Shown in pieces: positions 9,521 to 56,391 of a DNA stretch of 64,000 bases; position 1 is the first letter of the stretch, and every line of letters begins with the position of its first letter. The translations under genes and the position numbers were made by a program. Source of the stretch: Flavobacteriales bacterium 33_180_T64 (lineage in GTDB: Bacteria > Bacteroidota > Bacteroidia > Flavobacteriales > Flavobacteriaceae); the NCBI GenBank assembly GCA_002162685.1, contig MAAQ01000005.1:1-64000 (forward strand), given 5' to 3'. The notes beneath the pieces were generated by a model that saw only the letters and a program-made list of their open reading frames with translations, made no database searches and had not been told where the DNA came from.

Positions 9521-10165
9521 TTATTTAAATGTATGGCGTTGTTCTTCTGTTGAAGACGCATTTAGTAATTGGTTAAATGTTTTTATAGTGTTAAAATCGC
9601 GGGTAATTTCTCCAGATACAGCAATTCCAGAAACCCCCGTTTTTAATATGTCTGTAACATCTTCTGTGGTTATTCCTCCAAAACCAATAATTGGTGTTTC
9701 TGTTTTTAAAGCTTCAGTAATTGCAGTGTAACCACTTAAACCTAAAACCAGACTTATATTGTCTTTGGTTGTTGTATCTCTAAAAGGGCTTAAACTAATA
9801 TAATCGACTTCTTTAATAATTAATGTTTCACAATCTTGCAAGGTATTTGCTGTTGCACCAATAATTTGCCAAGTGTATAAATGTTTTCTTGCTAGAGTAG
9901 GGCAAGAATCGGTTTTTCCTAAATGCACACCATCTGCTTTAATTGCTTTTGCTATTTTATAATGATCGTTAATAATTAATCTGGTTTGAAAATGTGATGT
10001 GATTTCTCTAGCCTCTTTAGCTAACTTTAAGAATTTTTTTTCTGAAATGTTTTTTAAACGTAATTGTACTAATTCTGTACCAGATGTACATGCCTTTTGG
10101 ATATTTTCAAGAACCTCTTTTGGAGAACTTCCTTGGGATATATAATGTAATTTAGGTATAATCAT
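9521..10165 (-). CDS. thiE: thiamine phosphate synthase (ThiE family)
   Basis: A 214-residue TIM-barrel protein that would join HMP-pyrophosphate and the thiazole phosphate to thiamine phosphate. Visible motifs: ELVQLRLK, IINDH, ADGVHLGKTD, IGATA, the substrate loop LSPFRDTTTK, IIGFGGI and GVSGIAVSGEI, in the order expected for ThiE/TenI proteins. The LSPF-TTTK loop favours ThiE, though the TenI aminase remains an alternative. It is alone rather than in a thiCSEGH operon, and convergent with the EEP gene. No recognisable TPP riboswitch lies upstream. Confidence 0.85.
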   Translation of the reverse strand: MIIPKLHYISQGSSPKEVLENIQKACTSGTELVQLRLKNISEKKFLKLAKEAREITSHFQTRLIINDHYKIAKAIKADGVHLGKTDSCPTLARKHLYTWQIIGATANTLQDCETLIIKEVDYISLSPFRDTTTKDNISLVLGLSGYTAITEALKTETPIIGFGGITTEDVTDILKTGVSGIAVSGEITRDFNTIKTFNQLLNASSTEEQRHTFK

Positions 10166-10298
10166 GTCTTAGTTTCTTGTTATTGGAGATACAGGTTGCA
10201 TTTTTATGGACGACTTCTAAGTTTTTTCTAATAAAAGAGGGCTCGCCAAAGTGATAAGAATCTTATATTTTGAACATTTCTGTGCATACATAGCGTAG

Positions 10299-10306
10299 CA
10301 AAAATA
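10299..10306 (-). promoter_or_regulatory. candidate promoter (-7 element) of thiE
   Basis: Read on the minus strand the octamer is TATTTTTG, a perfect match to the Bacteroidota -7 consensus TAnnTTTG. Initiation a few bases on would give a leader of about 125 nt before the thiE ATG at 10165. That leader contains a short GGC-GA-GCC hairpin. It does not contain the conserved CTGAGA / ACCTGATCTGG blocks of a TPP riboswitch. Confidence 0.4.
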
Positions 10307-10488
10307 CAAATGTTTATTGACCCAATAACTATAATTTAGTGCATGTATAAGACTTTATGGAATATTTCACATAGTATAGAATTATAGCTATCATTTTTTA
10401 TAAATGAAATAGTTACAGATCTATATTCTAATTTTTTGTTATTTAACAACTATCCTTAGTTTTTGCTTTACTTTTCTGTTTTAGAATA

Positions 10489-10554
10489 TTCACAAACTCA
10501 ATTTGCTTTTCACAAAGTCTTTTACAATGAATCATAGTGCTATTATTATATTTG
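10489..10554 (+). promoter_or_regulatory. direct-repeat operator and promoter of the 10560 LytTR regulator
   Basis: Two half-sites TTCACAAAC (10489) and TTCACAAAG (10509) are spaced exactly 20 bp apart. The -7 element TATATTTG is at 10547-10554, 38 bp after the second half-site start. The same half-sites with identical 20-bp period and identical 38-bp distance occur before 14438 and 16200. The layout of two direct repeats about two helical turns apart fits LytTR operators. The natural candidate binder is the regulator itself (autoregulation). Confidence 0.75.
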
Positions 10555-10559
10555 TGTGT

Positions 10560-11327
10560 ATGATTCAAATTAAAGCCATATTAATAGATGATGAGCAAAG
10601 CGCAAGAAATGTACTCACTAATTTATTAGAAAGAACGTCTTCAAATATTAATATTGTAGCTACTTGTGCAAATTTAGAAGATGGTGTTAAGCATATTAAA
10701 ACGTTACAACCTAATGTCGTGTTTTTAGATGTCCAAATGCCTAATTATGCAGGCTATGAAATCGCCAATTTTTTTGACACAATTAATTTTGAAATTATTT
10801 TCGTTACTGCTTACGATCAATATGCCATAAAAGCGTTTGAATTGAATGCTATTGATTATTTAGTAAAACCTATAAACAGAAAAAAACTAGACTTAGCACT
10901 ACGAAAATTAGAGGAAAAATTAACTAAAGAGGCAGAATTAATAGATTATCAAGCCTTGTTAAAAACAATTAAGGATAAAAATTATAAAAAAATAGTCATT
11001 CCAGAAATAGGGAATAGACGCGTTGTAAATTTAGATGGCATAATTGCAATTGAAGCAGATGGTGCTTATAGTAAGATTCATTTAAAAGAAAACATAATAA
11101 TTACAACCAGTAAAAATTTAAAATATTTTGAATCTATTTTACCTAAAGATTCTCTGTTTTTTCGTTCACATAGAGCATGGATTATTAATTTAGATGCTAT
11201 AGAATTTTTAAATAAAACCACATTAAGTATTACCTTAGCAAAAGGTGCTGTAAAAGCTAAAATCTCTAGAGCTAGAATAGCTGATTTTGAACATATTTTT
11301 TTAGCTAAAACCAATAATATACATTGA
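10560..11327 (+). CDS. LytTR-family response regulator
   Basis: A 255-residue product read from the ATG at 10560 (MIQIKAILIDDE). The frame is open further upstream, but the promoter -7 element at 10547-10554 rules out a longer start for transcripts from it. The receiver has the acidic pair D10/D11, phosphoacceptor D57 (VVFLDVQM) and K103 (YLVKP). A LytTR domain with the RSHRAWIINL stretch follows, about 150-250. The following kinase begins at a TTG overlapping the stop (TTGA), so the pair is coupled. It probably controls its own promoter and those of 14438 and 16200. Confidence 0.93.
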   Translation: MIQIKAILIDDEQSARNVLTNLLERTSSNINIVATCANLEDGVKHIKTLQPNVVFLDVQMPNYAGYEIANFFDTINFEIIFVTAYDQYAIKAFELNAIDYLVKPINRKKLDLALRKLEEKLTKEAELIDYQALLKTIKDKNYKKIVIPEIGNRRVVNLDGIIAIEADGAYSKIHLKENIIITTSKNLKYFESILPKDSLFFRSHRAWIINLDAIEFLNKTTLSITLAKGAVKAKISRARIADFEHIFLAKTNNIH

Positions 11328-14251
11328 TTAAAAGCATAGTTTTAGTATTTCTTTTTTTCGCTTCATTTTTAATGCAGGCACAAGAACCAGTATCTGTACA
11401 TCTTTCAGAAAAAGAAGGGTTACCAGATAAAGAGTTTTATTCTATTTTAGAAGATGACAAAGGTTTTATTTGGTTATGTGCAGACAAAGGTTTTTTTAGA
11501 TATGATGGAAAAATATTTAAAAAATATACACATGCAAACCAAATAGGACTATCGGTATTTAATGTACAACAAGGCCCTTTAAAACGTATTTGGTGTAATA
11601 ATATTTCAGGTCAATTTTTCTATATTAAAGATGATAAATTAAATCTTTTTATAGACTTAAGTAAAACGTTAAAAGGAGAATTAGCCGATTTTGTAGTTAA
11701 CGATAAGTATCTCTGGGTATTTACCTTAGGTGAGATATATAAAGTGAATATAAAAACAAAAAAAATAGAATTCACTTTTAAAAACAAAAAAAAAATTGGA
11801 ACTCCATTCGAATATAATAATGCTATTTATTTTCAAAATTCGGATTCTATTTCTAGCATAACGTCGACAAACAATATTAAACACGTATTACCAATAAAAC
11901 TACCATCTAAATATAAATATGGCAACGTTATAGGTCAAGGAAAATCGAAGCATTTTAAAGTGGGGACTTCTTTATTTTTAATGGAAAACAGATCATTTGT
12001 AAACACTTTTTTTCAGTTTGATATCACTAAAAAAAGCTTTCATCTTATAAAAGGATTAGAAGCTGTAGCTAAAGAACGGATTTATACCCAATTTGAAAAT
12101 GAAAATGAAATTTGGATTGGTACAAATTCAGGGGTTTTTGTATATGAATTATTAGCAGATAACTTTCGGTTAAAAAAACGATTCCTAAAAGATAAAAATA
12201 TTACTAAAATACTAAAAGACAAAGATGATAATTATTGGTTTACGACACTAAACAATGGTATTTATGTGATGCCAAACATTAATATTGAAGCCTGTGTTAT
12301 TTCAGAAAAACATAAAAATATAAGTAGTTTAGATGTTATAAATGATAGTACGTTGGTTTTTGGAACTAAAGATGGTAATGTAGGATTTTACAATGTAATA
12401 ACTAACAAAGAAAAAAGTATATTATTACCAACAAAAGATCGAGTTTCTACACTTAAATACCATCCTAAAAAAAATACTGTTTTTATAAGTAAAGATCTTC
12501 AGTCTTATGTGTTAAACTATAAAACGCTAAAATTGACAAAAATTGATGGTGACAAGAGATTTAATACAGCCAAAAGTTTAACGGCACTAAAAAATAACGA
12601 TTTACTTCTTACGAGTTATAGCTCGGTAAGAATACTAAAAAAAGCAGATTTCAGTAACGAAGTGCTTGATGTTTCTAATAGAAAAAGAACATATGCGTCA
12701 CTTTACAACAAAACGAAGAATGAAGTGCACATAGCATTTGTTGATGATTTGATTAGGTATGATAGTATTTGGAATCCAACAATTATTCAATATAAAAATA
12801 AATCTATTTATGGTAAATCAATATCAGAAACTATTAATGGTATTATATGGGTATCAACTTTTAAAAATGGTGTTTTTGGAATTAAAAATGATTCCGTAAT
12901 ACATCATTATACAACGGCAAATGGTTTGTCTTCTAATAATATAGAGCGAATAAAAGCATACAAAAATAAACTTTGGATTTGCTTAGATAATAGCATACAA
13001 TTACTTGATGTTACTACTGGACAGTTAAAATCATTACGAAAAAGTGATGGTGTTTTGTCCTATGATATTTCGGGGATAGAAATCCTAAATAATAAAGTTT
13101 ATTTTTCCTCTAATGAAGGCTTATTTTCTATACACAAAGAAAAATCATTTAAAAGCCAATCTCCAGAAATATATTTCAATACAGTAGAAATTAATGAAAG
13201 AGATACTTTAGTAACGTCACATTATAAATTAAAATACAACCAAAACGCTATAAAAATAGGTTTTAATGTCAACGATTTTTTATACAACCAGAAAGGAAAG
13301 TATAAATATCGTTTAAAAGGATTTAATGAGGATTGGTTAATTACAGATGTTGGCGTAAACTCAGTAAAATATAATAGCTTACCAGCAGGTAAATTTATTT
13401 TTCAAGTACAACCATTGTTAGACAATCAAACCCAAAAAGGGAAAATAAAAGAACTACGAATTATAATACGCAGTCCATTTTGGGAAACCTGGTGGTTTAT
13501 TTGGGGAATCTCATTTTTTGTACTCATTAGTACGATATTTTATTTTAGATATCAAATAAAAAAGAAAGAAGAAGAACGTGTTGTTCAATTAGAAAAAATA
13601 TCCTTAGAAAAGGAATTAATCGCTATAAATTTAACAGCTTTACGCTCGCAAATGAATCCTCATTTTATATTTAATGCCTTAAATTCTATACAAGATTTAG
13701 TCTTAAAAAAAGATACAGAAGCGTCTTATGATTATATTGTATTATTTGCAGAATTGATTAGAAATGCCTTGAGTTATTCTAACCAAGATTTTATTTCAAT
13801 AGAGAAGGAGTTAAACTTTTTAAAAGTATATTTACAGTTAGAAAACCTTCGTTTTGGGGACGATTTCAAATATACTATTTCTTTTAATTCAGATGAAAAT
13901 TTAGACATTCCTTCATTATTAATTCAACCTTTTATAGAAAATGCATTAGTACATGGATTACTTCATAAAGCAGGAAAAAAAGTACTAGATATTGAGTTTA
14001 GTTTTATTAATAATGTGTTACAATGTGTAATTACCGATAATGGAATTGGTAGAAAAGAAGCTGCAAAAATCTCAAGTCGACAAGGAAATCATCATGACTC
14101 CTTTGCACTTGGAGCCATAGAAAAACGATTAGAAATCTTTAGAAAACAATATAACGAACATATAGGTTATGTTATTAAAGATTTATACGAAAATCAAACC
14201 GCTAAAGGGACAAAAATAATTATAAAAATGCCATTTAAAAAGCGATTTTAA
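11324..14251 (+). CDS. two-component sensor: extracytoplasmic propeller, Y_Y_Y domain, LytS-type kinase
   Basis: A 975-residue product starting at TTG 11324, which overlaps the regulator stop; no in-frame ATG fits the signal peptide (IKSIVLVFLFFASFLMQAQ). Residues ~25-620 are two-component propeller repeats (KGFIWLCADKGFFRYDG, NEIWIGTNSGVF, NGIIWVSTFKNGVF). A Y_Y_Y-type beta-sandwich (YKYRLKGFNEDW) follows, then one membrane helix (~727-747) and a coiled coil. The kinase carries His780 in NPHFIFNALNS, N-box FIENALVHG and G-box DNGIG. It resembles the sensors of Bacteroidota polysaccharide systems, but lacks a hybrid receiver and signals to the adjacent LytTR regulator. Confidence 0.92.
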   Translation: MIKSIVLVFLFFASFLMQAQEPVSVHLSEKEGLPDKEFYSILEDDKGFIWLCADKGFFRYDGKIFKKYTHANQIGLSVFNVQQGPLKRIWCNNISGQFFYIKDDKLNLFIDLSKTLKGELADFVVNDKYLWVFTLGEIYKVNIKTKKIEFTFKNKKKIGTPFEYNNAIYFQNSDSISSITSTNNIKHVLPIKLPSKYKYGNVIGQGKSKHFKVGTSLFLMENRSFVNTFFQFDITKKSFHLIKGLEAVAKERIYTQFENENEIWIGTNSGVFVYELLADNFRLKKRFLKDKNITKILKDKDDNYWFTTLNNGIYVMPNINIEACVISEKHKNISSLDVINDSTLVFGTKDGNVGFYNVITNKEKSILLPTKDRVSTLKYHPKKNTVFISKDLQSYVLNYKTLKLTKIDGDKRFNTAKSLTALKNNDLLLTSYSSVRILKKADFSNEVLDVSNRKRTYASLYNKTKNEVHIAFVDDLIRYDSIWNPTIIQYKNKSIYGKSISETINGIIWVSTFKNGVFGIKNDSVIHHYTTANGLSSNNIERIKAYKNKLWICLDNSIQLLDVTTGQLKSLRKSDGVLSYDISGIEILNNKVYFSSNEGLFSIHKEKSFKSQSPEIYFNTVEINERDTLVTSHYKLKYNQNAIKIGFNVNDFLYNQKGKYKYRLKGFNEDWLITDVGVNSVKYNSLPAGKFIFQVQPLLDNQTQKGKIKELRIIIRSPFWETWWFIWGISFFVLISTIFYFRYQIKKKEEERVVQLEKISLEKELIAINLTALRSQMNPHFIFNALNSIQDLVLKKDTEASYDYIVLFAELIRNALSYSNQDFISIEKELNFLKVYLQLENLRFGDDFKYTISFNSDENLDIPSLLIQPFIENALVHGLLHKAGKKVLDIEFSFINNVLQCVITDNGIGRKEAAKISSRQGNHHDSFALGAIEKRLEIFRKQYNEHIGYVIKDLYENQTAKGTKIIIKMPFKKRF

Positions 14252-14346
14252 GGAACTTTATAGTGTAGTAAAATTGAATCACTTCAATAAGCCTTTCCTC
14301 TTTAAACTACCAATTTTTACTATTTTAAATTTTAAGTTTACCACCT

Positions 14347-14412
14347 TTCACAAACCCAAATTAACATTCATAAAGTAGATTGTTCTTAAAAGACAAACTA
14401 ACATTACTCTTG
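14347..14412 (+). promoter_or_regulatory. direct-repeat operator and promoter of the 14438-15915 operon
   Basis: Half-sites TTCACAAAC (14347) and TTCATAAAG (14367) are 20 bp apart. A -7-like element TACTCTTG lies at 14405-14412, again exactly 38 bp after the second half-site start. The arrangement is identical to that at 10489 and 16099, while surrounding bases differ. The -7 element departs from TAnnTTTG by one base, as would suit an activator-dependent promoter. Confidence 0.75.
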
Positions 14413-14437
14413 TTTTAAATTTTAAAAAATAAACAAG

Positions 14438-15436
14438 ATGAAAAAAATAATTTTTGCGATAGCATTGTTAGTTACCACAGTAACAATTGCCCAAAACAAC
14501 CTATTTAGTAATATCTCTACCACAGATCAGTATCAAGAATATTGGAGAGCTTGGGATGCAGAAGGTGATGGTACTTATGAGATAGGTAATAAACGGTATG
14601 TTGTTAAATTTGTATTAAAATACTTACCTACTGGAGAAGGCTACAGTTATGCAGCTATAGTAGATGAAGGAAATGATAAAGATAAGAGTGTCGAAAATGG
14701 AAACGCAGTTGATGGTTATAACTTATGTACTGGTTATCCTCACGAAAGTGTTATGACCCATAAATACGATAAAGACGGCATTGTTGCTATAGATGACTAT
14801 GTGTTTATATTGAGAGGTGTTTCTAAAGACGGTACTTCTTTTGAAGGAATTGATAAAGTGTTTATAAAAAAAGCAACTGGAAGCTCTAAATCAAATAGTG
14901 GTAAAAAGAAAAAAATGTCTTTTAAAGAAAGGTTTAAAGCCTTAAAAAACAATGCCAAAGGTGTCAAGGACTATGGAGAAGCACATAAAACTTTACAAAG
15001 CAAAAATCTAGATAAACTAATTACTGAATATTTGGTAGCTATGAAAGTCAAACAAAACGGAAGATCAGCAGCAGAAAAGAAAGGTGATAAGAACATTACG
15101 GCTGCTAAGAATAGAGGTGATGAGGAAATAAAAAGATATAATGACTCTATTAAAGCCACACCAAAGTATCAAAAAATGAAAGCCCATCAAAGACGTATGA
15201 AACAGATGGACAATAATAACTCGAAACAATCTGTCACAATTTATAACAAGACAGGTAAAGATATTTATATTTATAAAGATGGGTCAAGAAATGGCACACG
15301 TATAAATGTTAATAGTTCAGCAAAGGTAGACTGTTCGTCTAACTATACTTATAAGTTTGATTCTAATTCTGGAGGTTCAGGTTCTAGTTGTTATAATGCT
15401 AACACTGGGTGCGATAGAAGTGTGACAATAAATTAA
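14438..15436 (+). CDS. exported protein of unknown function, basic linker
   Basis: A 332-residue product with a signal peptide (MKKIIFAIALLVTTVTIAQ). Residues ~25-145 form a probable beta-rich domain with paired Cys/His. Residues ~148-250 are lysine- and glutamine-rich and probably helical (KMSFKERFKALKNNAKG). A small C-terminal beta domain (~265-332) carries several cysteines in a Gly/Ser-rich tail. No type IX tail is seen and no family was recognised. It is preceded by the shared LytTR-type operator and followed 20 bp later by another exported gene. Its products are likely outputs of the 10560 system. Confidence 0.75.
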   Translation: MKKIIFAIALLVTTVTIAQNNLFSNISTTDQYQEYWRAWDAEGDGTYEIGNKRYVVKFVLKYLPTGEGYSYAAIVDEGNDKDKSVENGNAVDGYNLCTGYPHESVMTHKYDKDGIVAIDDYVFILRGVSKDGTSFEGIDKVFIKKATGSSKSNSGKKKKMSFKERFKALKNNAKGVKDYGEAHKTLQSKNLDKLITEYLVAMKVKQNGRSAAEKKGDKNITAAKNRGDEEIKRYNDSIKATPKYQKMKAHQRRMKQMDNNNSKQSVTIYNKTGKDIYIYKDGSRNGTRINVNSSAKVDCSSNYTYKFDSNSGGSGSSCYNANTGCDRSVTIN

Positions 15437-15456
15437 TAACCTTATCTGATTTTATT

Positions 15457-15915
15457 ATGAAAACACTTTTAAAGTATCTAATTGTATTATTAACACCATG
15501 TTTGCTTTTTTCACAAAAAGAGGCTCCTACAGAAGCTATTAACGGCACTTATCATTTGATGACTGCAGAACGAGGCATAGGTAATAAACAAACTAAGACA
15601 CAACTTTTTCAATATACTAAATGGGGAAAAGATAATGTATTGGTTGTTGCAGCTTGTGAAAGGTGTTCACCAGTACTATATACATACCAAAAAGAAGACA
15701 GTGAAGCAATGGGAATCTCTGTTTTTTATAATGCTATAGGATTGTATATGTTTACTTACGATGAGGAAAGCTTTATAATGATGGTACCTGCAAATAAAGA
15801 AAGTACGGATTGGACAGATTTTACATATAGTAATTTTTATAGCAAAAGTAGGGTTAAAGCAGAAGCTATGACACCACAAAAAATTGTAGATTATATCACA
15901 AAAATTTCTGAATAA
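15457..15915 (+). CDS. exported protein of unknown function
   Basis: A 152-residue product with a signal peptide ending near LLFSQ (residue 20). The mature part is a compact domain with a C-x-x-C pair (ACERCSP) and many aromatic residues. It resembles small lipocalin-like or META-like proteins, but not closely enough to name. It lies 20 bp after the 14438 gene and before a strong terminator, so the two form one operon. No family assigned. Confidence 0.7.
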   Translation: MKTLLKYLIVLLTPCLLFSQKEAPTEAINGTYHLMTAERGIGNKQTKTQLFQYTKWGKDNVLVVAACERCSPVLYTYQKEDSEAMGISVFYNAIGLYMFTYDEESFIMMVPANKESTDWTDFTYSNFYSKSRVKAEAMTPQKIVDYITKISE

Positions 15916-15942
15916 TTTTAGATTATAAAATTTATAATTAGC

Positions 15943-15974
15943 AAAAGCACAGTTGTAATGACTGTGCTTTTTTG
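15943..15974 (+). terminator. rho-independent terminator after the 14438-15915 operon
   Basis: An 11-bp perfect stem AAAAGCACAGT / ACTGTGCTTTT with loop TGTAATG is followed by a T run. It lies 28 bp after the stop codon at 15915. The loop is identical to that of the terminator at 19989. Confidence 0.85.
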
Positions 15975-16098
15975 TTTTTGTAGGGTGTGTGATTTTAAAA
16001 ACAGACATCGTAGCTTGACTACTAGCCATTCTTCTTTAGGCTAACAGTGAAGGACTTGTTTTTTTAATTTTCAGGTTTTCATTTTAGGTTTAGTGTCC

Positions 16099-16164
16099 TT
16101 CACAAACTCAAATTGCTATTCATAAACTCAATGTCCAGTAAATAATATTTCAGATGTATCCTTG
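16099..16164 (+). promoter_or_regulatory. direct-repeat operator and promoter of the 16200 gene
   Basis: Half-sites TTCACAAAC (16099) and TTCATAAAC (16119) are 20 bp apart, with TATCCTTG at 16157-16164, 38 bp after the second half-site start. This is the third copy of the arrangement seen at 10489 and 14347. Read on the other strand each half-site gives TGAGTTTGT or TGAGTTTAT, matching 8 of 9 positions of the general LytTR half-site pattern as I know it ([TA][AC][CA]GTTN[AG][TG]). Confidence 0.75.
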
Positions 16165-16199
16165 CTTAAAATAAACCAAATTAATAACCTAAATTTATT

Positions 16200-19100
16200 A
16201 TGAAAACAAAATTACTTTTACTGCTAATGGCAGTATTTACAATAAGTATCAATGCCCAAACTCAAGTCGTTACTGGAGTTAATATTGGTACAGCCCTAGA
16301 CTACGACGGTAGTCACTTATATATTGCAGAATTATTTGGCAATAAAATTTCAAGAATAGATTTAACAGTTGGTGCATCTAGCTACGAAGTTGTAACTAAT
16401 ATTTCAAGACCAGAAGGTGTTGCAATTAATGGAAATGAAGTGTATACAGCAGGTATTTCGTTAGGTGGTGCAACAGTAGCAGATATCTCAGGTAGTTTAC
16501 CAGCGACGAGTAATAATATAGCAGCAGGTGGTAATATTAGAACAGTAGTTTTTGATGCTACTCACGGATTGTATTTAATAAAGACTGATGGTTCAAGCAA
16601 TACGAAAATTTACAGTATCTCTGGAACTATACAAACTTTTATAGTAGATGTTGGAGTAGGAGATATAAGAGCAGCTACTATCGAAGGTTCAGAAATGTAC
16701 CTATCTAGTAGAAGTGGCGGTGCAATTTATAAGTTTGATTTAAACAATGTAGCAACACCAACATTAGTAAAATCAGGATTAAACCAACCTTACGAAATAG
16801 ATATCGTTAATAATCATCTTTATTTTGCTAGCGAAGCAGGTATATTAGGGAAATTCGATTTAACAAATACCGCAGCAACACCAACTATTTTTGTTAATAA
16901 TACTTTAGGAAATTTAGCAGGTATCGAGGTTATTGGAGAAGATATTTATTTTACAAGTTGGACTAATAATTCTGTTTATAAAATAAATGACCCAGATTTA
17001 ACACCTTGTATTGTAAACATCCCTGATGCTAACTTTAAAGCCTATTTAGTTGGTAACACAGCAATAAATACCAACGGAGATACCGAAATACAATGTAATG
17101 AAGCAACTGCTTTTACGGGAGCTATAACTGTAAATAATGAAAACATAAATGACTTAACAGGAATTGAAGCCTTTATTAATATTACAGGACTAGACTGTAC
17201 ATATAATAATTTAACAAGTTTAAATGTGACTCAAAATACAGCATTAATTTCTCTTTATTGTTATAATAATCAATTAACCAATTTAAATGTATCTGCCAAT
17301 ACCGCAATATCAGTGTTAAATTGTAGTGCTAATCAATTAACCTATCTAGATGTATCTGCCAACACTGCTTTAACAGTGTTAAATTGTAGTGTTAATCAAT
17401 TAACCTCTCTAGATGTTTCTGCCAATACAAGTCTAATATTTTTATTTTGTTATGCTAATCAATTAGCTATTTTAGATGTAGCCAATGGAAATAACTCTAA
17501 TATTACTACTGGTGCTTTTAAAACGGAAAACAACCCAAACCTTGCTTGTATTCAAGTAGACAACGTAGCATACAGTACCGCAAACTGGACAAACATTGAT
17601 GCTGCATCAAGTTTTAGTACAAATTGTGGTCCATGTACCGTAAACATACCAGATGCTAATTTTAAAAATTATTTAGTTAGTAATACAGCAATAAATACCA
17701 ACGGAGATACAGAAATACAATGTAGTGAAGCGAGTGCTTTTACAGGAATAATAAATGTAAATAATAGTAGTATCTCAGACTTAACAGGGATTGAAGCTTT
17801 TACCGCTTTAACAGAGCTATTATGTGCTAATAATCAATTAACCAGTTTGGATCTGTCTGTTAATACAGCTTTAACAGCTCTATATTGTAATAATAACCAA
17901 TTAACAAGTATAGACGTATCTAATAGTACAGCTTTAACAGAATTAAGGTGTGACACTAATCAATTAATTAGTATTGACGTATCTAATAATACAGTTTTAA
18001 TGTCTTTAGTTTGTTTCTCTAATGCATTAACCAGTTTAGATGTGTCTGCTAATACAGCTTTAACAACTTTAGATTGTTCTTATAATTCATTAACTAGTAT
18101 AGATGTGTCTACTAATACAGCTTTAACAGTTCTAGTTTGTCGTACTAATCAATTAACTAGTTTGGATGTGACCACCAATACAGCTTTAACATTTTTAAAT
18201 TGTTTTGATACTCAATTAACCAGTTTAGATGTTTCTGTCAATACAGCTTTAATAACTCTATTTTGTGGTGATAATAATCAATTAACTAGTTTAAATGTGG
18301 CGAATGGAAATAATACAGTAATAACTTCATTTATTAGTACAAACAATCCAAACCTTACTTGTATTACTGTAGATGATGTAGCATACAGTACAACAAACTG
18401 GACAAATATTGATGCACAAACAAGTTTTAGTACAAATTGTAATGCCTCAACAACAAGTATTGTCTATGTAAATTATACCGCAACAGGAAATAACGATGGT
18501 ACTACTTGGGCAGATGCCTATACTCATTTAGAAAATGCTTTAGCAGCAGCAACAGATGGTAACGAAATATGGATAGCAACAGGTACGTATTTACCAAATA
18601 CTACAGATTCACAAACCACACCTTTTAATATTAATAATGCTGATTTAAAAATATACGGAGGTTTTGCAGGTACAGAAACGCAACTTTCAGATAGAGTTTT
18701 AGGAACTAATGAAACTATTTTATCAGGGGATTTTCAAGCAAATGATGTTTTTGTAAACGACCATTTTGTAAATAGTTTATACCATTCAAGTAAAACAGAT
18801 AATAGTAGAAATATTATAAATATTACTGCCTTAGCAAATAATTTAGTCTTAGATGGATTAACAATTTCTAATGCTCATAATTCTGTCAATAATATTTATG
18901 GAGGTGCTATTATTAAAGAGGAAACAGTAGCAAAGTTAACCATTAAAAACTGTACCATTAAAAACAACATCGCAGCATTAGCAGCACCAGGTGTCTTTGC
19001 TAGGTTTGAATTAAACAATGCTGGTGGCACAAGAGGAGAACTTATTATTGAAAATAGTAAATTTATAAATAATATGTCTCGTTTTGCTTCAGGAGTTTAT

Positions 19101-19964
19101 GCTTATGCAATAACGAATACACTTCTTGATATAAAAGTTGAAAATTCACTTTTCAACAATAATATAGCAGGAAATACCAGTACAGGAGTTCGAGGTCTTA
19201 GTGGTGCAGCTTCTTGGTTTAGATCTATTGGAGCAAGTTCTGACCTCGATTTAAAATTAATAAACAACACCTATGTTAATCATCTTGATGATTCTGACGG
19301 AAACAGTATAAACAATAACAGTAGAGCAGTTGTAGCTATAAACACTTCTTCTACAGGTGTGTTAAATGCCGAAGTGGTAAATTGTATTTTTTGGAATAAC
19401 TACAAGCCAGCATCTCCATCAAATATTGCTGTGAGGTCAATTACCAATACCTATCAAGATGTAGCACAATCTATAGTGGTGAAAAATTCTATAGACCAAT
19501 TAAATTTTAACGACGCTAGTATTACAAGTACGGTAAACACAAGTAGTGCAAGCCCTTTATTTACTAATATTAATAATGATTTGACCATACAAATAGGTTC
19601 ACCAGCAATAGATGCAGGAGACAATAGTTATGTAACCGCAACGTCAGACTTATTAGGAAACCAACGTGTTTTTAATACTACTGTAGATATGGGAGCTTAT
19701 GAATTTGGAGCTCCTTCTTTAGGCGTTGAAGACAATGTTCTATTACAAGACTTTAAATTATACCCTAATCCAGTACGTAATATCTTAAACATTAAGATAG
19801 AAGATACTTTAGAAAAAATTGAAATGTATTCTGTTTTAGGAAGAAAAATAACAGAAAGTAAGCTAACTTCTGTAGATGTTTCTAGTTTAGCATCTGGTGT
19901 GTATGTATTAAAAGTATATACTCAAAACGGAAAAGTAGGCGTGAAGCGTTTTATTAAAAAGTAA
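16200..19964 (+). CDS. large type IX-secreted protein: beta-propeller, Cys-ladder LRRs, beta-helix
   Basis: A 1254-residue mosaic. Signal peptide MKTKLLLLLMAVFTISINAQ. Residues ~20-270 are an NHL/SMP30-like propeller. Two blocks (~275-475 and ~480-755) each open with VNIPDANFK-YLV-NTAINTNGDTEIQC. Each contains tandem 21-residue LRRs of the form L-C-x-x-N-x-L-T-S-L-D-V-S-x-N-T-A, one Cys per repeat, like the cysteine ladder of internalin J. Residues ~760-1165 look like a right-handed beta-helix (YVNYTATGNNDGTTWADAY start). The tail (~1180-1254, LYPNPVRNILNI ... SGVYVLKVY) is a type IX sorting domain. A surface adhesin is the likely role. Confidence 0.9.
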   Translation: MKTKLLLLLMAVFTISINAQTQVVTGVNIGTALDYDGSHLYIAELFGNKISRIDLTVGASSYEVVTNISRPEGVAINGNEVYTAGISLGGATVADISGSLPATSNNIAAGGNIRTVVFDATHGLYLIKTDGSSNTKIYSISGTIQTFIVDVGVGDIRAATIEGSEMYLSSRSGGAIYKFDLNNVATPTLVKSGLNQPYEIDIVNNHLYFASEAGILGKFDLTNTAATPTIFVNNTLGNLAGIEVIGEDIYFTSWTNNSVYKINDPDLTPCIVNIPDANFKAYLVGNTAINTNGDTEIQCNEATAFTGAITVNNENINDLTGIEAFINITGLDCTYNNLTSLNVTQNTALISLYCYNNQLTNLNVSANTAISVLNCSANQLTYLDVSANTALTVLNCSVNQLTSLDVSANTSLIFLFCYANQLAILDVANGNNSNITTGAFKTENNPNLACIQVDNVAYSTANWTNIDAASSFSTNCGPCTVNIPDANFKNYLVSNTAINTNGDTEIQCSEASAFTGIINVNNSSISDLTGIEAFTALTELLCANNQLTSLDLSVNTALTALYCNNNQLTSIDVSNSTALTELRCDTNQLISIDVSNNTVLMSLVCFSNALTSLDVSANTALTTLDCSYNSLTSIDVSTNTALTVLVCRTNQLTSLDVTTNTALTFLNCFDTQLTSLDVSVNTALITLFCGDNNQLTSLNVANGNNTVITSFISTNNPNLTCITVDDVAYSTTNWTNIDAQTSFSTNCNASTTSIVYVNYTATGNNDGTTWADAYTHLENALAAATDGNEIWIATGTYLPNTTDSQTTPFNINNADLKIYGGFAGTETQLSDRVLGTNETILSGDFQANDVFVNDHFVNSLYHSSKTDNSRNIINITALANNLVLDGLTISNAHNSVNNIYGGAIIKEETVAKLTIKNCTIKNNIAALAAPGVFARFELNNAGGTRGELIIENSKFINNMSRFASGVYAYAITNTLLDIKVENSLFNNNIAGNTSTGVRGLSGAASWFRSIGASSDLDLKLINNTYVNHLDDSDGNSINNNSRAVVAINTSSTGVLNAEVVNCIFWNNYKPASPSNIAVRSITNTYQDVAQSIVVKNSIDQLNFNDASITSTVNTSSASPLFTNINNDLTIQIGSPAIDAGDNSYVTATSDLLGNQRVFNTTVDMGAYEFGAPSLGVEDNVLLQDFKLYPNPVRNILNIKIEDTLEKIEMYSVLGRKITESKLTSVDVSSLASGVYVLKVYTQNGKVGVKRFIKK

Positions 19965-20240: not shown

Positions 20241-22574
20241 ATGAGAAAAGCAGTTGCTATTATATTTTTAAGCTTATCTTTTTGTGTAAGCTATTCGCAA
20301 ACAATATCAATTGGTATTCTTACTGACCAATCTTCAGCAGAATCCCAACCTTTATTAGAACAATTAAAAGCAGAAATCAAAGCTGTTGTCGGACAAAGTA
20401 GAATTGTAGTTTTTAAAGAGGTACTTGAAAATGACTTTAATAAGGAAACAGCAAAGTCAAATTATCAATCACTGTTAACTAAAAATACAGACATTATATT
20501 ATCGTTTGGAGTGATAAATAATATAATGCTATACGAGCAAAAAGTATATCCTAAACCTATCATTGTTTTTGGTTCTATAAATAATGATTTTATGAATTTA
20601 CCAAAGGATAAAAACACCTCTGGCATTGATAATATTACGTACTTAATCGCTCCTTTTTCTTATACTTCAGATTTAGATGCTTTTAAGTCTCTTTTCAGTT
20701 ATAAGAAAATCGGAATTATAGTTGATGATTTTCTACCAAATGTGCTACCCTTAAAAAATGTATTTGACACTTATTTTGCTGAAAGAGAATCGAGTTATAA
20801 ACTAATCCCTATTACACAAGAAACCAATATCAGTAGTTCATTAACTGATGTTGATGCTGTTTACCTTGCCTCAGGAATTAATTTGAACGAAAAAGAATAT
20901 AAAACCTTAATTAGCACTATTAATCAACAGAAGCTCCCCTCTTTTTCAGCTTTCGGAATACGTGATGTTAAGAATGGAATACTTGCAACTAATCAGCCAG
21001 ATACAAATATTGATCAGTTTTTTAGACGCATTGCTTTAGATGTGGAAGCAATAGTTTCAGGTACTAATGCTTCTGAATTGCCATTGCATATAGACTATAA
21101 AAATAAATTAACCATAAACCATGATACAGCAACACAAATAAATTTCCCATTACGATATAGTTTAATAGCTATTGCCGATTTTATTGGAGGCTCTAATACA
21201 ACTACTTCAGAGTTTACATTATCAATTCTTGAGATTATGAATGATGTTGTTGGTAATAATTTATCGCTAAAAGCTGAAAAGAAGGATATTGATTTATCCC
21301 AACAAGATGTAAAAACGGCAAAAAGCAATTACCTTCCTGATGTAAAAGCTAGTGTTGATGGCATTTATATTGACCCAAAGATTGCAGAAGTTTCAGGTGG
21401 AAATAATCCAGAATTTTCTACTTCAGGAAATATTGTTTTAAAGCAACTTGTTTATTCTGAGAATGCTTCGGCAAATGTTGATATTCAAAATGATTTACAA
21501 AAAGCACAACAAGAAGTATATAATGCATCAGAGTTAGATGCATTATTAAACGCTACAGTATCTTATTTTAATGCACTCATTTTAAAAACAAATGCTAATA
21601 TCCAAAATCAAAATTTGCAAGTCACTAAAAAGAATTTAGAATATGCCGAACAAAATTTTGAAGCTGGAGCATCAGGAAAATCTGATGTACTCCGTTTTCG
21701 AAGTCAACTTGCACAAAACACACAAAGTTTAATAGAAGCAGGCAATCAATTAAAGCAAGCGTTCTATACTATTAATCAATTAATGAATAATAATATTTCA
21801 AGAGAAATAGATATTGAAGATGCCGAATTGTCTGAAGGGATATTTAAAAATTACAGATATCAAGATTTTTTAGTGCTTTTAGACAATCCGAAATTACAAC
21901 CATTTTTAATTGATTTTTTAGTTGAAGAAGCGAAGAATAATGCACCAGAATTAAAAAATATAGGTTATAATTCAAATGCTCTCGAACGAAATTATAGATT
22001 AAATAATACTGGTCGTTTTATACCAACAGTTGCACTACAAGGACAATACAATTTAGCAATTTCTGAATCTGGTAAAGGTTCTTCCTTCCCAATTGGTTCA
22101 CCTAATATTCCTGATGGAACTTATAATGTTGGATTAAATATATCATTGCCAATTTTTCAGCAAAATCAACGAAATATAAATAAACAAACTGCAAAAATTC
22201 AACAAGATCAATTATCAATTCAAAAAGAAAATACAGAATTAAATATTGAAAAGAATGTAAATGATATTATACTTGATATTGTGAGCCAAATTGCAAATAT
22301 TGAGATTTCAAAAATTGCTGAACTAACTGCAAAAGAGAGTTTAGAGCTAACACAAAACGACTATGAAAATGGTGCAGTTCCAGTAATACAACTTATTGAT
22401 GCACAAACCAATTATTTGCAATCTCAATTGGCAAGTACAACTGCTAATTATAATTATCTAATAGCATCTATGCAGTTAGAACGTACTATTGGGTATTTTT
22501 TCTTAATGCATTCTGAAGCTGAAAACCAAGCTTTTATTCAAAGAGCCAATCAATTTATATTAAATAAAAACTAA
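20241..22574 (+). CDS. fusion of ABC substrate-binding-like domain and TolC-type outer-membrane channel
   Basis: A 777-residue product with a signal peptide (ends ~CVSYSQ). Residues ~22-310 resemble the ABC_sub_bind (TrpX-like) periplasmic fold: ISIGILTDQSS, IILSFGVINN, PIIVFGSINNDF, and INFPLRYSLIAIADFIGG at its end. Residues ~325-770 are a TolC/OEP channel: two similar long helical repeats, AKSNYLPDVKA, LPIFQQNQR, and ENGAVPVIQLIDAQTNYL near the end. TolC proteins normally stand alone. It is the first gene of an operon with the adaptor (10 bp gap) and RND pump. Confidence 0.85.
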   Translation: MRKAVAIIFLSLSFCVSYSQTISIGILTDQSSAESQPLLEQLKAEIKAVVGQSRIVVFKEVLENDFNKETAKSNYQSLLTKNTDIILSFGVINNIMLYEQKVYPKPIIVFGSINNDFMNLPKDKNTSGIDNITYLIAPFSYTSDLDAFKSLFSYKKIGIIVDDFLPNVLPLKNVFDTYFAERESSYKLIPITQETNISSSLTDVDAVYLASGINLNEKEYKTLISTINQQKLPSFSAFGIRDVKNGILATNQPDTNIDQFFRRIALDVEAIVSGTNASELPLHIDYKNKLTINHDTATQINFPLRYSLIAIADFIGGSNTTTSEFTLSILEIMNDVVGNNLSLKAEKKDIDLSQQDVKTAKSNYLPDVKASVDGIYIDPKIAEVSGGNNPEFSTSGNIVLKQLVYSENASANVDIQNDLQKAQQEVYNASELDALLNATVSYFNALILKTNANIQNQNLQVTKKNLEYAEQNFEAGASGKSDVLRFRSQLAQNTQSLIEAGNQLKQAFYTINQLMNNNISREIDIEDAELSEGIFKNYRYQDFLVLLDNPKLQPFLIDFLVEEAKNNAPELKNIGYNSNALERNYRLNNTGRFIPTVALQGQYNLAISESGKGSSFPIGSPNIPDGTYNVGLNISLPIFQQNQRNINKQTAKIQQDQLSIQKENTELNIEKNVNDIILDIVSQIANIEISKIAELTAKESLELTQNDYENGAVPVIQLIDAQTNYLQSQLASTTANYNYLIASMQLERTIGYFFLMHSEAENQAFIQRANQFILNKN

Positions 22575-22584
22575 CCATACCACA

Positions 22585-23676
22585 ATGAAATTCACAAAAC
22601 ACATACTCTCTGTATTTACATTTCTATTATTAATAACATCTTGTAAAGAGACAGTCGTGGAAAAAGAAGTGATTCTAAAGCCTGTAAAATATCAAGTGGT
22701 AGGGACTTCAAATAGACAGCAAATAAGAACCTTTAGCGGCAATGTAAGAGCTGGTGATGAAATTGAATTAAGTTTTAGAGCCAATGGTATTATTACAGTA
22801 CTCAATGTAAAAGTAGGTCAACAAGTTAAAAAAGGAGATGTATTAGCGAGATTGGATAATGTACAAGCAAATTTAGCTTTTGAACAAGCAAAATCAGCAG
22901 TAAATGCTGCGCAATCAGCTATGAATACAGCCAAGTCTAGTTTGGATAGAACGAAATTATTATTCGAAAAAGGAAGTAATTCCTTAAGTGACTATGAAGC
23001 GGCAAAGAACTCATATCAGTCAGCTTTAGATCAATTTGAATCTGCAAAAAGAAATAGAAGTATACGAAGTTCTGAGATTAGTTATGGAATTATTAGAGCT
23101 CCAAAAAGTGGTATTATAGCTTCAAAAAGTGCTAGTTTAAATGAAAATATTAGTTCAGGAAAAATAGTTGCGATTTTAAATGCAGGAAAGGGAATTAATA
23201 TTGTTGTTGGTCTTCCAGAAAATAGTATCAACAAAGTAAAAGTAGGAATGGAAACTGACCTTAGTTTTTCGGCAATAAATAACAAAAATTTAAAAGGAAG
23301 AGTTATCGAAGTATCTCCTATTGTAGATGCAAGTACATCTGTATATCCTGTGAAAATGGAAATTATAGACGCAGTTGATGCAATAAAACCAGGAATGACA
23401 GCAAGCGTGACTTTTAATTTTGGAGAAGAGAATACAGTAAAAGACAATGTTCTTGTTATTCCTGTAAAATCTGTTGGAGAAGATGGCAATGGAAACTACG
23501 TTTTTCTTATTGAATCTACAGATGGAAAAATAGGAACGGTAAAGAAGCATCCTATAAAAATAGGAGAGCTAACAACATCTGGTTTTAAAATTGAAAGTGG
23601 ACTTTCCGCTGGAGATAAAATTGCTACTGCAGGCTTGCAGAGTTTATTAGATGGTCAAAAAGTGAAATTACAATAA
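22585..23676 (+). CDS. RND efflux periplasmic adaptor (membrane-fusion protein)
   Basis: A 363-residue lipoprotein (lipobox LITSC, Cys ~20). The lipoyl half-motifs ELSFRANGIITVLNVKVGQQVKKGDVLARLD and IIRAPKSGIIASKSASLNENI (first lines of each) flank an alpha-hairpin of ~80 residues (AAQSAMNTAKSSLDRTKLLF). A beta-barrel and a membrane-proximal domain (GLQSLLDGQKVKLQ) follow. It would link the TolC fusion at 20241 to the inner-membrane pump at 23705, within one operon. Confidence 0.92.
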   Translation: MKFTKHILSVFTFLLLITSCKETVVEKEVILKPVKYQVVGTSNRQQIRTFSGNVRAGDEIELSFRANGIITVLNVKVGQQVKKGDVLARLDNVQANLAFEQAKSAVNAAQSAMNTAKSSLDRTKLLFEKGSNSLSDYEAAKNSYQSALDQFESAKRNRSIRSSEISYGIIRAPKSGIIASKSASLNENISSGKIVAILNAGKGINIVVGLPENSINKVKVGMETDLSFSAINNKNLKGRVIEVSPIVDASTSVYPVKMEIIDAVDAIKPGMTASVTFNFGEENTVKDNVLVIPVKSVGEDGNGNYVFLIESTDGKIGTVKKHPIKIGELTTSGFKIESGLSAGDKIATAGLQSLLDGQKVKLQ

Positions 23677-30568: not shown

Positions 30569-31273
30569 TCAATTATTAATTAACTTAATAATGTCTTTAT
30601 AAGACGCGCCAATCGGAATTTCTATACCGCCAAGTAAGATTACATCTTTTGAGGTTAAAGCGGCAATTTTCCTGGTATTAATAATATATGAACGATGTAC
30701 CCTCAAAAAATAAGAAGGTAACCTTTGAACAAAAGTGCTTATTTTATCTTTTGTAATTATGGTGTCCTTTACGGTATGTATTCTCACATAATCTTTAATA
30801 CTGTCAATAAACAGAATGTTGTTAAACTCAATTCTAATCATCTTTTTGTTTGAATTAACAAAGATATGATCTAATGTTATATCCATTTCTGATGATGTGT
30901 GTTTACCACTGGTGGTTGCATGGAATGCCCTGTATTTATTGATAGATTTATAAAAACGAAGAAAGGATATTGGTTTTAATAAATAATCAATGATATCCAA
31001 TTCATAACCTTCCAAGGCATATTCTCTGTAGGCTGTTGTTAATATGATTTTTGGTTGTATCATCGTGTTTTTTATAAAATCGATACCTGTAACTTCTGGC
31101 ATTTGGATATCTAAAAACAAAAGGTCAATACTAGTATTTTGAAGAAAATGTCCAGCAGATATAGGGTTATCAAAAGTTGCTGTAAGTTCAAGGTCCGGCA
31201 CTTTCATTATGTGATTTTCAAGTACCTTAATGGCCAGCGGCTCATCATCTACGACTATACATTTTATGGCCAT
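30569..31273 (-). CDS. LytTR-family response regulator
   Basis: A 234-residue product. Receiver with D9/D10/E11, phosphoacceptor D55 (LLFLDIQMPE), T80 and K100 (YLLKP). LytTR domain ~130-230 with LRVHRSYIINTRKI. It follows its kinase with a 1-bp gap on the minus strand. The pair is divergent from the FGE-like/PD40 genes at 32612-35311, which carry a shared promoter box and are its likely targets. Confidence 0.94.
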   Translation of the reverse strand: MAIKCIVVDDEPLAIKVLENHIMKVPDLELTATFDNPISAGHFLQNTSIDLLFLDIQMPEVTGIDFIKNTMIQPKIILTTAYREYALEGYELDIIDYLLKPISFLRFYKSINKYRAFHATTSGKHTSSEMDITLDHIFVNSNKKMIRIEFNNILFIDSIKDYVRIHTVKDTIITKDKISTFVQRLPSYFLRVHRSYIINTRKIAALTSKDVILLGGIEIPIGASYKDIIKLINN

Positions 31274-41547: not shown

Positions 41548-42243
41548 TTATAATTTTGCTAAAGCTTCCAATTTTTTAAAAACAATAACCTTATACATAG
41601 CACTCACAGGGACTTCATTATTTTCAATTAACAAATATGCTCTGGTTGCCTTTGTAACTCTATCTAAATTAGAAATATATGATTTATGTGTACGTTGGAA
41701 ATTCTCAGATAATAAAGTAGTAATATTAATAAGCGTTTCAGAGATAAGGTACATTCTTGAATCTGTATAGATTTTCAAATAATTTCCAAAACTCTGAATG
41801 TATAGAATTGATTTAAATGAAATATTAACAGGCATTCCATCATGTTTTATTTGAAGTTCTTCACTTCCCCTATTTTTTTTAGGTTGTGCTATTAAGGAGA
41901 CTGAAATTTTATTGATTGCTTTCAAAAAGCGCTCAAATTTTACAGGTTTCAATAAATAATCTACAACACCATAGTTATAACTTTCTAATGCATACTCAGA
42001 ATATGCTGTCGTTAAAATAACTTTAGGTGGGTTTACCATAGAACGCAAAATTTCCATGCCATTAAGTTCAGGCATTTCTATATCAAGAAAAATGATATCA
42101 ACTTCATTTTGCTGAGTGAAATTAATAAATTCAAGTGGATTTCCTGTGCTTAATACTAATTCAAAATTGTCAATTTTAGCACAATACTCTTCTATCACTT
42201 TACGTGCTAGTATTTCATCATCTACGATACCAATTTTAATCAT
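41548..42243 (-). CDS. LytTR-family response regulator
   Basis: A 231-residue product. Receiver: D8/D9/E10, phosphoacceptor D54 (IIFLDIEMPEL), K99 (YLLKP). LytTR domain ~125-230, with FQRTHKSYISNLDRV. It overlaps the 3' end of its kinase gene by 8 bp. The pair is divergent from the serine-hydrolase-like operon at 43490. Confidence 0.94.
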   Translation of the reverse strand: MIKIGIVDDEILARKVIEEYCAKIDNFELVLSTGNPLEFINFTQQNEVDIIFLDIEMPELNGMEILRSMVNPPKVILTTAYSEYALESYNYGVVDYLLKPVKFERFLKAINKISVSLIAQPKKNRGSEELQIKHDGMPVNISFKSILYIQSFGNYLKIYTDSRMYLISETLINITTLLSENFQRTHKSYISNLDRVTKATRAYLLIENNEVPVSAMYKVIVFKKLEALAKL

Positions 42244-55701: not shown

Positions 55702-56391
55702 CTATTTTAACCTACTCAAAACAAATGATTTAAACTGAGAACCGATTGGAATTTTATTTTCTCCAATTACAACGTAATCTGAACTTACTGAATCTATTTT
55801 TGTGAAATTTACGATATAAGATTTTTGAATTTGAAAGAAGTTCTTGTTTAATAAAGATAATGCTTCGGCAATGCTTTGTCTTCCCATTATCTTTTTTCCA
55901 TTTACAAAATAGTTGATATAATTGCCGTCCTTTTGGATATATTCAATAGCATCAAGATTAATTTGATGTGTTTCTAATCCACTTTTAATAAATATAGTCT
56001 TAGAATGCTCAGAATGAATATCATTAGATTTTAATACAGCACTATTGGTATTTGTCAACTTTGTAATTGCTTTCGAAAAACGATCTAAACTAATAGGTTT
56101 TAAAAGGTAATCCACAGCATTAACTTCATAACTTTCTAAAGCATGTTCTGAATAAGCAGTAGTAAAGACAATACTTGTGTTTGGTGAAATCATTTTAGAC
56201 AAAGACAGACCACTTAAATGTGGCATATTAATATCCAAGAAAATAACATCAATAACATTAGTGTTCAAAAACTCTAATGCCTTTAATCCGTTTCTAAAAG
56301 TTGAAACCAATTCAAATTTTGAAAAATGAGTTAAATAGGACGCAATAAGGGCTATTGCTTTAGGTTCATCATCAACTATTATTACCTTCAT
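55702..56391 (-). CDS. LytTR-family response regulator
   Basis: A 229-residue product. Receiver: D7/D8/E9, phosphoacceptor D53 (VIFLDINMPHL), K98 (YLLKP). LytTR domain ~125-229 with FFQIQKSYIVNFTKI. It overlaps its kinase gene by 20 bp. The pair is divergent from the serine hydrolase gene at 57639. Confidence 0.94.
   Translation of the reverse strand: MKVIIVDDEPKAIALIASYLTHFSKFELVSTFRNGLKALEFLNTNVIDVIFLDINMPHLSGLSLSKMISPNTSIVFTTAYSEHALESYEVNAVDYLLKPISLDRFSKAITKLTNTNSAVLKSNDIHSEHSKTIFIKSGLETHQINLDAIEYIQKDGNYINYFVNGKKIMGRQSIAEALSLLNKNFFQIQKSYIVNFTKIDSVSSDYVVIGENKIPIGSQFKSFVLSRLK

Follow-up and report, generated by a model that had tools for sequence, protein, structure and literature searches.

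Three copies of a LytTR-type operator point to a LytS/LytTR system that probably activates itself and neighbouring genes for exported proteins in a Flavobacteriales genome

Which DNA do the LytTR regulators of Bacteroidota recognize, and which genes do they switch? As far as we know and have searched, these regulators are mostly without assigned operators, and the genome of Flavobacteriales bacterium 33_180_T64 (GCA_002162685.1) alone encodes about 20 whose alignments cover most of their length. We addressed the question in a window of 64,000 nucleotides (contig MAAQ01000005.1, positions 1 to 64,000), in which three promoters carry the same paired-repeat operator. A first-pass annotation had attributed these sites to one regulator, most simply the LytTR protein encoded at 10560, which would activate its own operon together with surface outputs. 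Comparison with other genomes supports this attribution, in that the sites precede the orthologous regulator in other genera and recur before its neighbours. It is very likely that a LytS/LytTR system at this locus activates its own expression as well as that of a few nearby exported proteins, part of which would be secreted by the type IX pathway.

The operators and their specificity

All three operators lie on the forward strand and have the form TTCACAAAC-N11-TTCAYAAA. Operator 1 (10489..10517), with half-sites TTCACAAAC at 10489-10497 and TTCACAAAG at 10509-10517, precedes the gene of the regulator. Operator 2 (14347..14375; half-sites 14347-14355 and 14367-14375) precedes a gene for a 332-residue protein, and operator 3 (16099..16127; half-sites 16099-16107 and 16119-16127) precedes a gene for a 1254-residue leucine-rich-repeat protein. 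The corresponding -7 elements, also on the forward strand, are TATATTTG (10547..10554), with 5 nt from its end to ATG 10560, TACTCTTG (14405..14412) and TATCCTTG (16157..16164); in the last two, C replaces T at -8. Read directly, the half-site period is 20 bp at all three sites, and the start of half-site 2 is 38 bp from the start of the -7 octamer in 3 of 3 cases. The layout, 9 + 11 + 9 at each site, fits the definition of a LytTR operator, i.e., two repeats of 9-11 nt with a spacer of 11-13 nt, near a promoter (PMC4847170, PMC6193735). The N11 interior is partly conserved, with the consensus CCAATTTGCCA over 32 related sites. The interval between half-site 2 and the -7 element has diverged in sequence among the three sites and kept its length. 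The positions, the 20-bp period and the 38-bp spacing given in the first-pass annotation, as well as its remark on constant spacing with diverged flanks, are thus borne out. It should be noted that sigma-70-type consensus matches overlap operator 3; they were set aside because Bacteroidota promoters differ from that consensus.

The first-pass annotation had also suggested a genome-wide scan with the 66-bp pattern of two half-sites and -7 element. In the 3,752,198 bases of the source genome, this pattern has 3 forward matches, all at this locus, 0 reverse matches and 0 matches in the control; the same spacing at sites without exported genes, the outcome named there as adverse, does not occur within this genome. 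The operator pattern is absent from all of the 22 other genomes of the genus that were searched. A half-site pair without the -7 element is only weakly specific, since with one mismatch it has 9 matches in the whole genome versus 7 in a backwards control. With up to 3 mismatches, the window contains 6 matches versus 3.94 expected, a number reached by 23 of 100 shuffles (not significant); the exact matches in this window scan are the three operators alone. Genome-wide, there are four exact half-site pairs, the fourth of which (contig C19) has no -7 element at the matching spacing. The three window sites stand out because they are both exact and equipped with a -7 element.

We also used a sequence-only model of 32 sites, with no rows from the window. 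In the source genome this model ranks the three operators first (E from 2.6e-10 to 1.1e-7, the latter for the third site), operator 1 being the best match genome-wide; the next-best match is partial (E 0.016), and there is no strong site away from this locus. A chance origin of the three sites is rejected by their genome-wide uniqueness, by this ranking and by the operator-only spacing test described below.

Conservation of the operator with the regulator

A search for the regulator in 299 genomes of the family (E <= 1e-45) found close regulators in G043 (71% identity), G100 (65%) and G048 (two, 56%), and relatives at 38-43% identity in six genomes; from a scan of contigs for regulator loci, 80 loci were kept. 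Fifteen regulator orthologues (53-78% identity) have paired half-sites and a -7 element at 36-38 bp before their own gene. In the conserved regulator promoters (16 including that of the window, from blocks chosen for fit), the half-sites are 20 bp apart, and the -7 element lies 36-38 bp past the start of the second half-site and is followed by 4-5 nt to the ATG. Further operator copies precede neighbouring, mostly exported-looking genes of the orthologue loci. For example, homologues of the 332-residue protein stand under the same operator in G043, where the counterpart of operator 2 has the offset 38, and in locus L065. Among 9 genomes with a homologue of this protein, matches to the window-free model occur in the source genome and G043, and none occur in the other 7, which have no close regulator.

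A matrix built from the 16 regulator promoters and window sites 2 and 3 detected further sites in the window and in loci L054-L141, with 0 in reversed sequences (3.19 Mb); its regulator matches are its own training set, which tells against them as evidence. A separate matrix for clade 2 (loci L081-L099), in which the regulators have Lys at both residues 205 and 237 (numbering of the window), detected regulator and target sites, with 2 control matches in 2.08 Mb. An operator-only matrix, from whose training the window was left out, was designed to avoid circularity. In 914,362 bases, on both strands, it gave 44 matches versus 1 in the reversed control; 28 of the 44 were not flagged as regulator promoters, although one of these, L072 9829, does precede a regulator. 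Among these 28 non-regulator sites, a -7 element (at least 5/6 positions) is found at offset 38 in 18 and at offset 37 in 4; the other 26 offsets (24 to 51) together gave 5 such matches.

Across the 299 family genomes, matches of the window-free model below 1e-5 occur in 4 genomes only, each of which has the regulator or, in the case of G297, an apparent truncated copy. At E <= 0.001 there are 11 genomes, namely the source genome, G043, G048, G100, G297 and six others. In 22 selected genomes, 16 have matches at E <= 0.003, and of the 43 matches in total, many of which were rows of the model and therefore count for less, 38 lie on the contig of the regulator within about 15 kb of it; the remainder are 3 strong matches on other contigs and 2 weak ones. 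In G297 (L159, L169), two operator copies persist, and the open frame that follows the regulator promoter appears truncated, which may mean that the system is being lost.

Clade 1 has the regulator first, then the kinase and then the targets. Clade 2 instead begins with the kinase, and the operator lies within the 75-85-nt gap that precedes the regulator. The gene order changed between the clades and the operator kept its place before the regulator; therefore, the operator stays with the regulator.

These data bear on the possibility that a different DNA-binding protein, either a LytTR paralogue or a global regulator, uses the sites, the neighbouring LytTR gene being one target among others. 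A paralogue could bind, given that the source genome has 32 matches to the regulator, with 19 others aligning over most of its length. But the sites accompany the regulator through different genera and gene arrangements, the source genome has no strong site away from the locus, and a conserved paralogue (C23, see below) uses visibly different half-sites, so that we consider this explanation unlikely.

Proposed activation, promoter strength and half-site variation

According to the proposed mechanism, the propeller kinase would sense an envelope signal and phosphorylate the 255-residue regulator at Asp57. The regulator would then bind as a head-to-tail dimer to the two half-sites, which have a period of 20 bp and occupy about -70 to -42, immediately before the -33 region. 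From there it would recruit sigma-A RNA polymerase both to the regulator promoter and to the two neighbouring promoters of exported-protein genes. The promoter of the regulator has a consensus -7 element and no predicted leader, which would maintain the regulator at a low basal level. In the two target promoters, the -7 elements are weaker (C at -8) and the predicted leaders are about 20 and 30 nt long, which would make these promoters dependent on the activator.

In Flavobacterium johnsoniae, start sites lie 4-5 nt past the -7 element, and T-8 is nearly invariant in its promoters (PMC6847099). The first of these figures would leave the regulator mRNA a leader of 0-1 nt, with transcription probably starting at about 10558-10559, i.e., a leaderless mRNA; in the window targets, the distance from the -7 element to the ATG is 25 and 35 nt. 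In 25 of 44 regulators, versus 18 of 293 other open reading frames (ORFs; drawn from 25 loci, some overlapping), an octamer with at least 5/6 matching positions ends 4-5 nt upstream of the start; in 36 of the 44 regulators, one ends 3-7 nt upstream. Leaderless mRNAs are rare in Flavobacterium psychrophilum (5.5% of 890 mapped coding sequences; PMC9723704), and a conserved leaderless start is unusual where such mRNAs are rare. It would also suggest how one operator could serve both the regulator and its targets with different outputs.

T is found at -8 in 16/16 clade-1 regulator promoters versus 8 of 22 target sites with an octamer of at least 5/6 (Fisher 3.4e-5), a contrast that was noticed after the fact among related rows, which lessens its weight. 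Without L072 9829 the fraction is 7/21, and over all 28 non-regulator sites, 10 have T (Fisher 1.5e-5). The perfect octamer, TANNTTTG, occurs in 11/16 regulator promoters versus 1/22 targets. Judged by eye, the target ORFs mostly start with signal-peptide-like or lipoprotein-like signals. We scanned 22 of the listed target proteins (two of them from the window), 8 of which have the type IX sorting domain PF18962; the others are cadherin-like, leucine-rich-repeat or NHL lipoproteins, proteins without family and one TPR histidine kinase (L068).

We infer activation, as opposed to repression, from the operator position (about -70 to -42), the weak -7 elements of the targets and the LytTR literature. 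A regulator that binds the same sites might instead act as a repressor, holding its operon and the exported genes silent in the absence of a releasing signal. Many bacterial regulators do autoregulate negatively. Besides, the LytTR protein PlnD has been described as a repressor at such sites (PMC2714321). However, an operator upstream of -33 leaves the core promoter free, fixed spacing to the -7 element is a requirement of an activator, and both window targets have a weaker-than-consensus -7 element, which makes repression quite unlikely. That the three promoters are recent copies of one, with spacing kept by descent and not by function, is very improbable: operators 1 and 3 do share half-sites and most of the interior, but the sequence from half-site 2 to the -7 element differs among the three at a fixed length, the same spacing with diverged intervals is found in other genera, and the operator-only matrix scan largely refutes this explanation.

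The half-sites vary with the regulator. Position 4 of the half-site is A or G in 46/46 half-sites for regulators with Arg at residues 205 and 237, and C in 36/46 half-sites for those with Lys at both, according to a table into which the sites were transferred by hand. Against solved structures, the LytTR domain matched chains of AgrA and ComE, and the variable Arg205 aligns to the Asn of an AgrA His-Asn pair, an Asn that contacts DNA.

Several observations weigh against a self-activating system of this kind. The relation of residue to half-site is a hint, not proof, because it reflects mainly one clade split in the family; half-site changes seem to accompany changes in the LytTR domain, with the exception of G100, whose regulator (Arg at both residues, outside the table) has one half-site, TTCCTAAA, with C. 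The short -7 spacing is absent in 8/44 regulators, and the weakness of the target -7 element does not extend to clade 2, many of whose targets carry a perfect octamer. Among the 19 loci L062-L080, five (L074, L075, L077, L078 and L079) have no matrix match before the regulator, and the match in L072 is 98 nt from the regulator start. The direct repeat is weak in single sequences, as 18/44 upstream regions reach 0.05 compared to shuffles. Six of the 299 genomes that have no close orthologue contain single model matches (5.3e-5 to 8.6e-4), which look like chance, and the six genomes with regulator relatives at 38-43% identity have no model match at E <= 0.001.

Paralogues, known systems and genes of the locus

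At the 19 other LytTR loci of the source genome, most upstream regions, inspected by eye, look like the tail of a different gene and show no promoter of this kind. One locus with the same promoter architecture is C23 (L015; G000 C23:160669-160740), a paralogue with 34% identity that occurs with a TPR histidine kinase. Its promoter includes half-sites TTATACA/CTATACA 21 bp apart, the -7 element TATATTTG 37 bp on and an ATG 5 nt later. In the 23 genus genomes, source included, there are 20 C23 orthologues at 79-100% identity, and the geometry is kept in 19 of them (offset 36 in 17, 37 in 1 and 38 in 1), with the octamer 4-5 nt before the ATG; half-site 1, whose position was set by the 21-bp lag, is similar to half-site 2 in these 19. 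The remaining orthologue, L207, is without this geometry, and the short -7 spacing is absent in four more distant paralogues (48-50%). A C23 model of 17 rows, none from the source genome, was used to search 8 of the 23 genomes, most of which had given rows, and it found one strong site per genome, the own promoter of the regulator (E <= 4.1e-9; next 0.06). With one strong site per genome, the C23 system looks self-regulating only; the model may be too narrow for diverged targets. The window also contains four further regulators related to the 10560 protein over most of its length (335-1036, 30650-31273, 41632-42240 and 55780-56406).

A general promoter grammar for Bacteroidota LytTR regulators is conceivable, although we regard it as tentative and somewhat short of probable. 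Regulator-specific half-sites 20-21 bp apart would stand 36-38 bp before a -7 element placed on the start codon of the regulator (leaderless), and the same operator would serve target promoters that have a leader and, in one clade, a weaker -7 element. Such a grammar would provide an insulated, self-amplifying switch for each of several paralogues, some of them for neighbouring surface proteins, with a regulon readable from sequence alone. If the geometry holds, the regulons of such systems become predictable from sequence, and the switched proteins, leucine-rich-repeat, cadherin-like and type IX-secreted ones among them, become tied to a sensor.

Paired repeats and positive self-activation are already established for LytTR proteins (PMC6193735, PMC4847170, PMC2714321), and positive autoregulation has been proven for HdrR (PMC4847170, PMC6193735). 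The HdrRM and BrsRM LytTR Regulatory Systems (LRS) are similar to the system proposed here in that a pair of direct repeats, with a spacer of 11-13 bp, lies directly before the core promoter, autoregulation is positive, and further target promoters contain such repeats (PMC6193735). They differ in that their regulators work with a membrane inhibitor protein (PMC6193735), whereas the 10560 regulator carries a receiver domain and is paired with a histidine kinase; the half-sites, the Bacteroidota -7 element and the probable leaderless start are further differences. In Bacteroides, LRS-like operons have 11-bp repeats with an 11-bp spacer, 11 bp upstream of TGTA-19 bp-TATCTTTG (Table 3, PMC6193735); their repeat sequence is another one, the regulator has transmembrane segments, and the cited part of that paper mentions no exported target promoters. 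PlnC/PlnD and YpdB are LytTR response regulators acting on tandem repeats near the promoter (PMC2714321, PMC4847170), in the case of PlnC/PlnD at several co-regulated promoters (PMC2714321). Their targets are different, i.e., bacteriocin genes and yhjX, respectively, as are their half-sites (PMC2714321, PMC4847170), and PlnC/PlnD use -35/-10 promoters (PMC2714321). Our searches of the literature (subscription papers not covered) for a Bacteroidota LytTR operator, for a connection of LytTR to type IX secretion and for LytTR genes that are leaderless or propeller-linked returned no description of this operator. As far as these searches show, the operator, the partner system, the type IX-linked outputs, the presumed leaderless start and the two-tier -7 elements, taken together, are new. 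Since both the Bacteroides repeats upstream of a TATCTTTG promoter and LytTR self-activation were known, the kind of system is known and its Bacteroidota form is new.

The LytTR response regulator (10560..11327, +; 255 residues) consists of a receiver domain (PF00072, 75.9 bits) and a LytTR DNA-binding domain (PF04397, 56.6 bits), both above cut-offs, and Asp57 is invariant in 5 orthologues. The program-made ORF list begins the gene at TTG 10503, whereas orthologues place the start at ATG 10560: four of them align from residue 1, despite in-frame starts further upstream. The next gene (11324..14251, +) encodes a LytS-type sensor histidine kinase (975 residues in the ORF list) with Reg_prop (PF07494), Y_Y_Y (PF07495) and His_kinase (PF06580, 80.9 bits) domains, and it adjoins the regulator gene in the source genome and in relatives. 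The kinase motif is present in the ORF adjoining the regulator at 28 of the 29 loci listed; the other one, L076, stops at its contig end. The kinase is short (about 420 residues) in three Aquimarina loci, L067-L069. In L068 (Aquimarina atlantica, 9992-16538), the regulator is followed by three consecutive short kinase ORFs and by a TPR histidine kinase that carries a separate copy of the operator, and in L066 (10728-13694, a Polaribacter record), the kinase frame downstream of the regulator is broken into two ORFs (277 and 546 residues).

The locus combines a receiver and LytTR regulator, an adjacent PF06580 kinase and a paired-repeat operator, the features of a LytS/LytTR two-component system. 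It is not an LRS, which has an inhibitory membrane partner, as the regulator here has a receiver and its partner is a histidine kinase. Bacteroidota hybrid two-component systems, in which sensor, kinase, receiver and AraC-type output are in one protein, have Reg_prop/Y_Y_Y periplasmic sensors. The type of periplasmic sensor domain is the same here, but kinase and regulator are two proteins, with LytTR as the output domain, so that the locus is not a hybrid system either.

The 332-residue protein (14438..15436, +) and the 152-residue product of the second gene of its operon (15457..15915, +) gave no match to a Pfam family. The AlphaFold2 model of the former has low confidence (mean pLDDT 66), and no fold in PDB matched it at E <= 0.001. 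A terminator-like hairpin (15943..15971, +; 13 pairs followed by a T-rich tail) parts this operon from operator 3; the scan with a terminator consensus found 1 versus 0.2 expected. The 1254-residue leucine-rich-repeat protein (16200..19964, +; PF12799, PF23952) has a C-terminal type IX sorting domain (PF18962). For this protein, the exported or surface output claimed in the first-pass annotation is corroborated by a domain, whereas the 332- and 152-residue proteins look exported by eye only. Beyond the 1254-residue gene, in a segment (20241-23676) where the matrix scan found no operator copy, lie genes for an outer-membrane efflux protein and a HlyD-type protein.

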